The position numbers and the translations under genes were made by a program. A stretch of DNA of 64,000 nt, from NCBI RefSeq assembly GCF_035918155.1, contig NZ_CP109327.1, forward strand, positions 4,216,001 through 4,280,000, given 5' to 3'. The notes beneath the pieces are model-generated. The model did not search any database, was not told the DNA's origin, and saw nothing but the letters and a program-made list of their open reading frames with translations. Below, piece after piece: positions 60,031-63,933 of this stretch (position 1 is the stretch's first letter; the number at the start of each line of letters is the position of its first letter). Origin of the DNA: Streptomyces sp. NBC_01591. Lineage in GTDB: Bacteria > Actinomycetota > Actinomycetes > Streptomycetales > Streptomycetaceae.

Positions 60031-60111
60031 GGGGTTTCTCTCCTCGCGATGCTGGTTGCGTGGAGGACGGCCCGCCGTGATCACCGGCATTCGCACCCGT
60101 ACGAGGGCACA

Positions 60112-60140
60112 GAAAAGGGCCGTCCATATCGAACGGCCCT
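60112..60140 (-). terminator. attenuator terminator hairpin of trpS
   Basis: On the minus strand AGGGCCGT, 9-nt loop, ACGGCCCT, then TTTTCT. A true U-tailed intrinsic terminator between the leader peptide and trpS, 81 bp upstream of the trpS start. Its left arm can instead pair with AGCGGCC of the preceding hairpin (antiterminator). Confidence 0.85.
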
Positions 60141-60142
60141 GA

Positions 60143-60211
60143 TTCCGTGCAGAGGGGAGGTGGCCGCTCCTAGAAGGAGCGCCACCAGTTTCGGCACGGT
60201 ACGGAGGTCAT
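60143..60211 (-). promoter_or_regulatory. trpS attenuator: leader region with pause hairpin
   Basis: Covers the leader peptide and the first stem: GGTGGC and GCTCCT pair with AGGAGC and GCCACC around TCT. When ribosomes stall at the two Trp codons, this stem cannot form, its right arm (AGCGGCC) is free to pair with GGCCGTT of the terminator, and transcription continues. When Trp-tRNA is charged, the ribosome finishes and the terminator forms. Confidence 0.8.
60170..60211 (-). CDS. trpS leader peptide with tandem Trp codons
   Basis: 13 residues, MTSVPCRNWWRSF, start ATG at 60211 and stop TAG ending at 60170. Two adjacent Trp codons (TGG TGG) at positions 9-10 are the regulatory stall site. 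Trp is a rare residue, so a tandem pair just before a stem and a U-tailed terminator is strong evidence. Its start ATG overlaps the stop of an upstream gene fragment (ATGA). Confidence 0.85.
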   Translation of the reverse strand: MTSVPCRNWWRSF

Positions 60212-60426
60212 GGAGCGAGCTTAACGGAACCGAACTCCGCCCACACGACCTTTCCCGGCCCGCGGTGCGCCCCGCCCAGGTGCCGCGCCAGATCCAGCAG
60301 CTTCCACTCGGGGCAGGTCGGCACCTGCGCGTCGAGGCCGGTCGCGGAGGCGACCGCGGCACGGAACGCGACCGACCGTTCGTCTACCAGCCGCAGCAGA
60401 ACAGGGAACTCCAGAGTCTTTGCCAC
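60208..60426 (-). pseudogene. maleylpyruvate-isomerase-family (DinB-like) N-terminal fragment
   Basis: 72 codons: MAKTLEFPVLLRLVDERSVAFRAAVASATGLDAQVPTCPEWKLLDLARHLGGAHR, the N-terminus of mycothiol-dependent maleylpyruvate isomerase-type proteins (with the V-P-T-C-P-E-W-x-L-x-D-L motif). The following GPGKVVWAEFGSVKLAP is unlike the family and ends at 60208. Intact proteins are about 200-250 residues, so two thirds are lost. Its stop codon overlaps the leader peptide start, so its translation could feed the trpS leader. Whether it is expressed is unknown. Confidence 0.6.
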
Positions 60427-61265: not shown

Positions 61266-61865
61266 ATGGCAGTGGGCGGAAACCCCCATACCGCGGCGCT
61301 CGCGCAGGTCGTACCGACGCGGCACGGCGTGGACGAGCGGATCGACTGGAGTACGGTCGAGGAGATCTGGGGGACCCGGTTCCCGGCCGACTACGTCGCC
61401 TTCATGGAGACGTACGGGGCGGGACAGCTCAGCGGGGAAGTCGGAATTCTGCTGCCGGTTCCGCGGACCGATACCTACTCGGACGGGTCCGGGCTGCGGG
61501 ACGAGACCGAGAACGCCCGCGGCACCTGGGAGATGCTCGGCGGCAGAGCCGCCCTCGACGTGGACCCCGGCTCCATCCTGGCCTGGGGTGTCACCACCGG
61601 TGCGGACATCTACTGCTGGCTGACCACGGGCGACGACCCCGACCGCTGGCCCGTGCTGGTGTGCGGACGGCACACCAGCCCCGCCTTCCAGGTCCACTCC
61701 TTCGGAATGGCGGAGTTCCTCCACAGACTGCTCACCGACGAAGAGTTCCAGGAGGACACGATCAGCGTCGTCCTCCCGGGAGAGCCTTCCTTCATCAACT
61801 GGCGTGAGCAGAAACGACGGTGGGACGCTGGCCTGAACCCGTCCACGGGCGAGCCCTGGGACTAG
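61266..61865 (+). CDS. SMI1/KNR4-family protein
   Basis: 199 residues. SMI1/KNR4 (SUKH) landmarks: V-E-E-I-W-G-T-R-F-P-A-D-Y-V-A-F-M-E-T-Y-G-A-G near the N-terminus, then G-S-I-L-A-W-G-V-T-T-G-A-D-I-Y-C-W and D-P-D-R-W-P-V-L-V. In bacteria such proteins are often immunity proteins for polymorphic toxins, but no toxin gene is adjacent, so this is not claimed. It follows the HEAT gene by 26 bp and may be co-transcribed. Confidence 0.85.
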   Translation: MAVGGNPHTAALAQVVPTRHGVDERIDWSTVEEIWGTRFPADYVAFMETYGAGQLSGEVGILLPVPRTDTYSDGSGLRDETENARGTWEMLGGRAALDVDPGSILAWGVTTGADIYCWLTTGDDPDRWPVLVCGRHTSPAFQVHSFGMAEFLHRLLTDEEFQEDTISVVLPGEPSFINWREQKRRWDAGLNPSTGEPWD

Positions 61866-62844: not shown

Positions 62845-63933
62845 ATGCAGTTCGGGATCTTCACCGTCGGGGACGTCACCACCGACCCGACGACCGGCAG
62901 GACGCCGAGCGAGCACGAGCGGATCAAGGCCACCCTCGCCATCGCGCAGAAGGCGGAGGAGGTCGGGCTCGACGTCTTCGCGACCGGCGAGCACCACAAC
63001 CCGCCGTTCGTCCCGTCCTCGCCGACGACCACGCTCGGCTACATCGCCGCCCGCACCGAGAACCTGATCCTGTCCACGTCCACGACGCTGATCACCACCA
63101 ACGACCCGGTGAAGATCGCCGAGGACTACGCGACGCTCCAGCACCTCGCGGACGGCCGCATCGACCTGATGATGGGCCGCGGGAACACCGGGCCGGTCTA
63201 CCCCTGGTTCGGCAAGGACATCCGTCAGGGCATCCCGCTCGCCATCGAGAACTACGCCCTGCTGCACAAGCTGTGGCGCGAGGACGTCGTCGACTGGGAG
63301 GGCAAGTTCCGTACGCCGCTGCAGTCCTTCACCGCGACCCCGCGCCCGCTGGACGGCGTCCCGCCGTTCGTCTGGCACGGCTCGATCCGCTCGCCGGAGA
63401 TCGCCGAGCAGGCCGCGTACTACGGCGACGGCTTCTTCCACAACAACATCTTCTGGCCCATCGAGCACACACAGAAGATGGTGAACCTGTACCGCCAGCG
63501 GTACGCGCACTACGGGCACGGCACCGCCGAGCAGGCCATCGTCGGCCTCGGCGGCCAGGTGTTCATGCGGAAGAACTCGCAGGACGCGGTACGGGAGTTC
63601 CGCCCGTACTTCGACAACGCGCCGGTCTACGGACACGGGCCCTCGATGGAGGACTTCACCCGGCAGACCCCGCTGACCGTCGGCTCCCCGCAGGAGGTCA
63701 TCGAGCGGACCCTGTCCTTCCGGGACGCCGTCGGTGACTACCAGCGCCAGCTGTTCCTGATGGACCACGCGGGACTGCCGCTGAAGACGGTCCTGGAGCA
63801 GCTCGACATCCTCGGCGAGGAGGTCGTCCCGGTGCTGCGCAAGGAGTTCGCCGCCCTGCGCCCGGCCGGGGTCCCGGACTCCGCGCCCGTCCACCCGGCC
63901 GTCGCCGCCCGCACCGCCACGAAGGAGGCCTGA
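62845..63933 (+). CDS. LLM-class flavin-dependent monooxygenase
   Basis: 362 residues; ATG at 62845 with GGAGGCGGG upstream. Luciferase-like (beta/alpha)8 fold: MQFGIFTVGDVTTDPTTG, EEVGLDVFATGEHHNPPF, ENLILSTSTTLITTNDPVKIAEDYATLQHLADGRIDLMMGRGNTG, VWHGSIRSPEIAEQAAYYGDGFFHNN. The typical A-T-G-E-H-H and D-G-R-x-D-L-M-M-G-R-G-N-T-G motifs are clear. It is followed by an NADPH-dependent FMN reductase gene, giving a two-component system (CE1758/CE1759 type) in which reduced FMN is passed to the oxygenase. Confidence 0.9.
   Translation: MQFGIFTVGDVTTDPTTGRTPSEHERIKATLAIAQKAEEVGLDVFATGEHHNPPFVPSSPTTTLGYIAARTENLILSTSTTLITTNDPVKIAEDYATLQHLADGRIDLMMGRGNTGPVYPWFGKDIRQGIPLAIENYALLHKLWREDVVDWEGKFRTPLQSFTATPRPLDGVPPFVWHGSIRSPEIAEQAAYYGDGFFHNNIFWPIEHTQKMVNLYRQRYAHYGHGTAEQAIVGLGGQVFMRKNSQDAVREFRPYFDNAPVYGHGPSMEDFTRQTPLTVGSPQEVIERTLSFRDAVGDYQRQLFLMDHAGLPLKTVLEQLDILGEEVVPVLRKEFAALRPAGVPDSAPVHPAVAARTATKEA

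Follow-up and report, generated by a model that had tools for sequence, protein, structure and literature searches.

A predicted ribosome-mediated attenuator with tandem Trp codons upstream of an auxiliary trpS gene in Streptomyces

The window, by which we mean the whole 64,000-nt stretch of Streptomyces sp. NBC_01591 analysed here (contig NZ_CP109327.1, positions 4,216,001 to 4,280,000), carries a trpS gene on its minus strand, preceded by a short leader open reading frame (ORF) and several RNA strands that can pair in more than one way (Table 1). Elsewhere in the same genome there is a housekeeping-type trpS (locus L002), whose product is 35% identical to the tryptophanyl-tRNA synthetase (TrpRS) of the window, and a third, weak trpS match (E 2.3e-4). 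Among solved structures, the window TrpRS comes nearest to 1yi8 and to 2a4m, which bears the name TrpRS II; both are from Deinococcus radiodurans. A search of 5.8 billion proteins gave 7991 relatives, and the named ones among the 120 listed are Streptomyces tryptophan--tRNA ligases. Judged by its sequence, the window trpS is a TrpRS-II-like auxiliary synthetase gene, i.e., a second copy beside the housekeeping trpS.

Table 1. Features of the trpS leader region, in window coordinates
Feature	Position	Strand	Basis
Predicted -10 element TAAGCT, 6 nt 5′ of the leader ATG	60218..60223	-	Sequence; TANNNT kept in orthologues
Leader ORF MTSVPCRNWWRSF, 13 codons, ATG at 60211, TAG stop at 60172-60170	60170..60211	-	Sequence; kept in orthologues
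Tandem Trp control codons TGGTGG, codons 9 and 10	60182..60187	-	Sequence, orthologues
P0 helix, 5′ strand CCGTGC, codons 5-6	60194..60199	-	Minimum free energy (MFE) fold; covariation
P0 helix, 3′ strand GCACGG, within the linker	60145..60150	-	MFE fold; covariation
Strand 1 of the 1:2 stem, overlapping the Trp codons	60176..60186	-	MFE fold; covariation
Strand 2, pairing with strand 1 (one bulged G) or, via 60169-60162, with strand 3	60159..60170	-	Folds; covariation
Strand 3, antiterminator partner GGCCGTTC	60131..60138	-	Strand 2-3 fold; covariation
Terminator hairpin, 5′ arm, 10-bp helix	60131..60140	-	MFE fold; covariation
Terminator hairpin, 3′ arm (strand 4)	60116..60125	-	MFE fold; covariation
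Terminator U-tract TTTT	60113..60116	-	Sequence
Shine-Dalgarno-like GAGGAG of trpS	60040..60045	-	Sequence
trpS, second (TrpRS-II-like) tryptophanyl-tRNA synthetase, 350 aa	58978..60030	-	TIGR00233, 230.9 bits; nearest structures 1yi8, 2a4m

In the D-x-H motif, Gln replaces His in all 181 aligned loci of the window lineage (duplicates included), and the His is present in the housekeeping enzyme and in one enzyme of the S. lividans type discussed below (L196). This His presumably matters for indolmycin binding. The Gln-for-His change suggests that TrpRS of the window lineage may be indolmycin-resistant, and we consider the spare TrpRS likely to be inhibitor-resistant.

The sequence-only reading of this stretch had described a 13-codon leader ORF with two adjacent Trp codons, a stem (GGTGGC/GCCACC and GCTCCT/AGGAGC), a U-tailed terminator (AGGGCCGT../..ACGGCCCT) and an alternative AGCGGCC/GGCCGTT pairing, all of which are found. 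The leader stop lies 140 nt upstream of trpS. Both the stem and the terminator are present in the MFE fold of 60211-60108, which reaches -52.3 kcal/mol (dinucleotide shuffles -31.7 ± 3.04, z -6.8, with 0/200 as low). When the segment spanning strands 2 and 3 is folded alone, the alternative pairing appears as GAGCGGCC/GGCCGUUC, which has one more pair than had been claimed and is not striking by itself (z -1.5, 16/200 shuffles equally good). The MFE fold also holds a helix that we call P0, which joins codons 5-6 of the leader to the linker. The locus had been credited with the full logic of attenuation, and this was right for the leader, stems, terminator and antiterminator, but the P0 helix and the predicted leaderless promoter had been missed. 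No Rfam family (T-box or other) matches in the window at the gathering threshold.

A TANNNT hexamer precedes the leader start in 138/138 orthologous upstream regions with a TGGTGG leader, at 6 nt (123 regions) or 7 nt (15), and other offsets up to 59 nt hold only a single such hexamer. The spacing count is somewhat biased, as the in-frame start codon that best suited the hexamer was used (ATG in 131, GTG in 7). Because TANNNT lies 6-7 nt before the start, the leader transcript is predicted to be leaderless, i.e., to start at the leader AUG. The prediction also draws on analogy with S. lividans, for which the RNA-seq results cited from PMC8079986 describe a trpS leader that is leaderless and followed by two hairpins. 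That a transcription factor (e.g., WblC/WhiB7) exerts the main control, with attenuation only fine-tuning, is unlikely in our judgement. SCO3334 is listed as WblC-activated in the cited part of PMC7157823, but we take that gene to be of another trpS lineage (see below), and upstream conservation in the 138 regions consists of the -10 region and the CG just before it, with no common -35 or operator in the 40 nt 5′ of the -10 region.

Orthologues of the window lineage (E ≤ 1e-80) occur in 55/295 sampled Streptomyces genomes and, in a partly overlapping sample of the order, in 62/293; the named loci from the genome collection are the best 80 of 335. Altogether 184 loci have the gene, and dropping three without an N-terminus and merging 24 duplicates leaves 157 distinct upstream regions. 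The TGGTGG leader is kept in 138 of these. The other 19 were first counted as without a leader, an effect of a filter that required TGGTGG: 12 have a single-Trp leader, with the Trp where the second Trp normally sits, one is degenerate (L144) and six lack the attenuator (L042, L044, L046, L048, L050 and L053). An attenuator with one or two Trp codons is thus found in 150/157 regions, and the constant Trp codon is the one adjoining the Arg or Pro codon. Nine single-Trp leaders end in SWRPS before the stop (L098-L105 and L174; the in-frame start of L102 was taken by hand, from the second GTG). The leaders of L117, L011 and L124 read Arg-Trp instead of Trp-Trp, their first Trp codon having become CGG (a one-base difference) with one Trp codon left, and control by this one codon is predicted to survive. 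Named members span at least five NCBI orders (Kitasatosporales, Streptosporangiales, Pseudonocardiales, Micromonosporales and Propionibacteriales).

Covariation was assessed in 41 diverse sequences from 48 representatives under 80% identity, after manual removal of seven: five whose leaders are long or shifted, plus the deviant L154 and L164. In these, 95.4% of cells are paired in the closed structure (34-62% in slid controls) and 98.2% in the antiterminator (at most 61% in slid controls). Six pairs of the closed structure change on both sides: three (of 5) in P0, two in the 1:2 stem and one in the terminator. In the antiterminator, an A-U pair becomes G-C in 10/41 sequences. The number of further pair types is unremarkable for both the closed structure (22 vs 19.8 in shuffles, reached by 40/500) and the antiterminator (4 vs 5.0, reached by 500/500). 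Two Embleya loci, L153 in the alignment and L154 by eye, have GACC in strand 2 and GGTC in strand 3, where GGCC stands in both elsewhere; the antiterminator is still paired, the terminator is left with a G-U and one 1:2 pair is broken. Some members have weak U-tracts (e.g., L097, L036 and L147). The leader ORF and the alternative pairing are therefore both kept in orthologues, contrary to the lack of conservation that had been named as a ground for refuting attenuation, and conservation on this scale (138/157 TGGTGG leaders plus 12 with a single Trp, and 98.2% pairing vs at most 61%) excludes chance as the source of the antiterminator.

P0 can also be assessed without an alignment. The best helix that the 5′ part of a leader forms with its own linker scores 15.7 on average (43 sequences; five of the 48 were unparsed), compared with 11.9 ± 0.37 (maximum 12.9) for shuffled linkers and 13.6 ± 0.40 (maximum 14.65) for swapped ones, with 300 rounds each. 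Some sequences have no convincing P0 at the same place, e.g., L149, L093, L096, L084 and L143. Forbidding P0 costs 12 kcal/mol (from -52.3 to -40.2), so in ribosome-free RNA the helix would add to the stability of the closed state.

P0 also bears on the leader's amino acids. The pattern C-x-x-W-W-R-S-S is common beyond its Trp codons, so one could suppose an arrest peptide, i.e., a nascent chain that stalls the ribosome itself, and so account for the WWRS ending and the Cys conservation. However, the Cys codon lies inside P0, which offers another explanation for its conservation, and L086, L183 and L160 have Cys replaced yet keep a 5-7 bp P0 helix at about the same place. The codons after the Trp pair also vary together with strand 2 (RSS, RLT, PS). 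Both observations point to constraint at the RNA level. Cys and P0 are not fully separable, as L143 and L096 lack the Cys and also a convincing P0, but we find an arrest peptide highly improbable and place any peptide-level role for the conserved Cys behind P0.

To model the placement of the ribosome, its leading edge was set at 15 nt from the first base of the P site. In this model, a ribosome waiting at codon 9/10 covers the RNA to position 37/40, leaving strand 2 (43-50) free, and one at the stop codon covers it to position 52. The switch that we propose would run as follows. Transcription would start at the leader AUG, and a ribosome would load once the 5′ end emerges. With ample Trp-tRNA, translation would run to the stop codon, where the ribosome would mask strand 2; strands 3 and 4 would then form the terminator and trpS would be off. 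With scarce Trp-tRNA, stalling at codons 9-10 would leave the predicted leading edge of the ribosome just short of strand 2, and the freed strand 2 would pair with strand 3, preventing the terminator. When there is no ribosome, P0 and the 1:2 stem would bury strand 2, making termination the default. Termination, stalling, the start site and induction are the steps of this model that we infer.

Folding of the two states supports this model. In the stalled state, with the transcript ending after strand 3, the antiterminator forms in 136/136 leaders, an outcome that truncation favours by construction, and with the ribosome at the stop the terminator forms in 136/136 (two of the 138 were unparsed). 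On the full transcript of the window, however, even the modelled stalled state favours the terminator (-18.7 kcal/mol) over the antiterminator (-13.5), so the switch must be kinetic. This preference is what one would expect of a constitutive terminator, or of the end of an upstream transcript, with the leader ORF and the alternative pairing incidental, and the unremarkable z-score of the antiterminator alone points the same way. But the Trp codons, their frame, the -10 spacing and the covariation of the antiterminator have been conserved jointly in five or more orders, and a plain terminator would need none of these, so we regard it as improbable in the extreme.

Attenuation, in turn, is strongly supported by the leader, the mutually exclusive folds and the covariation kept in orthologues. 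What one looks for in a trp-type attenuator is found here: a leader with cognate codons, an intrinsic terminator by sequence, a covarying antiterminator and, in the model, suitably placed control codons. It is very probable, on sequence and modelling, that this is a ribosome-mediated transcription attenuator of the classical type which senses Trp-tRNA charging and turns on the spare trpS.

A covariance model of the element (R1) matches 51/295 Streptomyces genomes at E ≤ 0.001, and 49 of the 51 matches lie just upstream of a window-lineage trpS (positions compared by eye). A weak match in G161 (E 2.8e-4) sits among longer overlapping frames with no recognised trpS and was judged by eye to be chance. 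In G186, the match (L205) is at a contig end and the trpS (L048) is on another contig without an attenuator; an insertion between the two is possible. G933 has a match of 28.9 bits. In the window's own genome there is no other match below E 0.05, and the housekeeping trpS locus is without one. In a sample of the phylum, 5/396 genomes match, including the window's own and G056.

Related designs also occur elsewhere. In two of these five genomes, G805 and G847, leaders of 13 and 12 codons with a Trp-Trp pair (MHTPSTRSWWPAS at L248 and MTASTCSWWPAS at L249), followed by an attenuator-like fold, lie 5′ of a long gene related to anthranilate synthase. Both genomes belong to a different bacterial family of the class, and by these sequences the general attenuator design would serve biosynthesis too. 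Equal weak model scores occur at four places in G000 (C1:149-202, C1:8806102-8806155, C2:149-202 and C2:1272529-1272582), i.e., close to each end of an 8.8-Mb contig and twice on a second contig of at least 1.27 Mb, which suggests terminal sequences shared by a chromosome and a linear plasmid.

The locus had also been likened to the auxiliary trpRS1 of S. coelicolor, whose attenuator is said to have been shown by experiment by Vecchione and Sello in 2010. The parallel stands for the mechanism but apparently not for the identity of the gene. The S. lividans trpS (SLIV_21110), whose attenuator we take as the counterpart of that of S. coelicolor trpRS1/SCO3334, has the leader MMTRTCTQLWRAA with one Trp, according to the cited part of PMC8079986. 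Allowing up to two mismatches, this pattern is found in 24/392 Streptomyces genomes, and at 10/10 loci the gene behind such a leader encodes a protein 33-35% identical to the window TrpRS and 48-49% to the housekeeping one. By sequence, the attenuated trpS of the S. lividans type thus appears to be a separate lineage, not orthologous to the window TrpRS, and we infer from the leader match that SCO3334/trpRS1 belongs to it. With a threshold of E ≤ 1e-115, the S. lividans-type lineage is present in 196/295 genomes, the window lineage in 55 and both in 7, compared with 36.5 expected (hypergeometric p 4e-20, uncorrected for kinship).

The two attenuators are alike in serving an auxiliary trpS from a 13-codon leader, leaderless in S. 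lividans and predicted to be so in the window, with Cys at codon 6 and Trp at codon 10. They differ in leader sequence and in the number of Trp codons, and the cited part of PMC8079986 reports the S. lividans attenuator without a U-rich tract. In the S. lividans-type lineage, a Trp leader follows TANNNT by 6-7 nt in 40/40 regions picked from the 196, and its members show P0, a 1:2 stem, an antiterminator-like strand and a terminator. P0 is stronger there: 20.8 vs 11.0 ± 0.39 for shuffled and 18.3 ± 0.45 for swapped linkers (38 distinct sequences of the 40). Homology of the two attenuator classes was considered and set aside. The window-class model scores S. lividans-type leaders at 18-25 bits, at the right place in 10/10 loci, but terminator matches on the reverse strand reach 24 bits and the anthranilate-synthase-like leaders 32 and 41 bits, so common descent is not established. 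The shared leader length, Cys 6 and Trp 10 could reflect either descent or convergence.

We tentatively propose that two unrelated spare TrpRS lineages, which hardly ever co-occur, share one attenuator design: a leaderless 13-codon Trp leader with P0 bending its first codons back onto the linker. In this reading, whose chance we put slightly below even, P0 would act as a lock and keep strand 2 buried as long as the 5′-terminal AUG carries no ribosome. If true, the switch would read that a ribosome is present and waiting for Trp-tRNA, not merely that strand 1 is free, and the lock would keep expression of a drug-inducible synthetase tight in untranslated RNA.

Loss of the attenuator can be followed within Streptomyces. 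Five species (L042, L044, L046, L050 and L053) form one clade (SH-aLRT 95) that keeps the gene without the attenuator, and the S. lividans-type lineage is present in each of these genomes as well. A causal link between the two looks attractive, as 5/7 genomes with both lineages are without the attenuator vs 1/48 with the window lineage alone (G186; Fisher p 3.5e-5). We set it aside, however, because five genomes of one clade may represent one event. Upstream of the gene, repeated CTGG words (like TATATCTGGAACATCTGGTCTGCCTCTGG) are present instead in at least L046, L050 and L053. Horizontal transfer of the gene with its attenuator was likewise not adopted: the protein tree has 10 changes of order vs a minimum of 4, but the starred branches do not force transfer. 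G168 has, on contig C40, two trpS copies with attenuators (L055 and L056), about 7.8 kb apart and protein-identical over the part compared, and G126 has a second, partial trpS match with its own attenuator.

The observation at this locus is real, well conserved and correctly read as attenuation, one more case of an established kind. In E. coli trpL, tandem Trp codons and competing hairpins control biosynthesis. The window element shares tandem Trp codons, competing hairpins and (as predicted) transcription termination with this and other trp operon/trpE attenuators, e.g., that of S. lividans trpE, but the genes under their control serve biosynthesis and do not encode a synthetase. For S. lividans trpE, the cited part of PMC8079986 gives the leader MFAHSTRNWWWTAHPAAH, which is leaderless. 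Seliverstov et al. 2005 (PMC1262725) predicted attenuators before trp operons and before the S. avermitilis trpS2; the trpS2 case is likewise a classical attenuator before a Streptomyces trpS, but the cited part of that paper describes no leaderless promoter or P0-type helix and does not give the trpS lineage. Vecchione and Sello 2010 is cited for an auxiliary, antibiotic-resistant trpS in a passage of PMC4787780, and Korolev et al. 2015 for Trp attenuators in Actinobacteria in one of PMC4833913; the latter may already list some of those described here. SGR_3809 of S. griseus, also a second trpS of a Streptomyces, is reported to encode an indolmycin-resistant TrpRS (Vecchione and Sello 2009, as cited in part of PMC6804068), and it is likely to be of the window lineage, since S. 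griseus BIG105 carries a window-type trpS (L119). A passage of PMC12087186 relates how a potentially resistant trpRS gene led to the chuangxinmycin cluster. Our literature search turned up no paper describing P0 or an attenuator for this lineage of TrpRS, which is weak evidence because it did not cover key papers.

Three points from this locus are worth keeping: the two lineages are separate, the geometry is predicted to be leaderless, and there is a P0 helix. Trp attenuation is extended from trpS of the S. lividans/S. coelicolor type to a second, non-orthologous lineage in several actinobacterial orders, with over a hundred natural variants for comparing leader, antiterminator and P0, and with a simple test case for attenuation on leaderless mRNA. 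It also suggests that soil bacteria could silence a spare, possibly drug-resistant target enzyme until it is needed.

The neighbourhood holds a few further features. A 67-codon open frame 5′ of the leader (60224-60424, minus strand) matches no Pfam or NCBIfam family and is possibly a gene remnant. A SMI1/KNR4 (SUKH) domain protein is encoded at 61266-61862 (plus strand), with trpS on one side and a CE1758-family luciferase-like monooxygenase (62845-63933) on the other.
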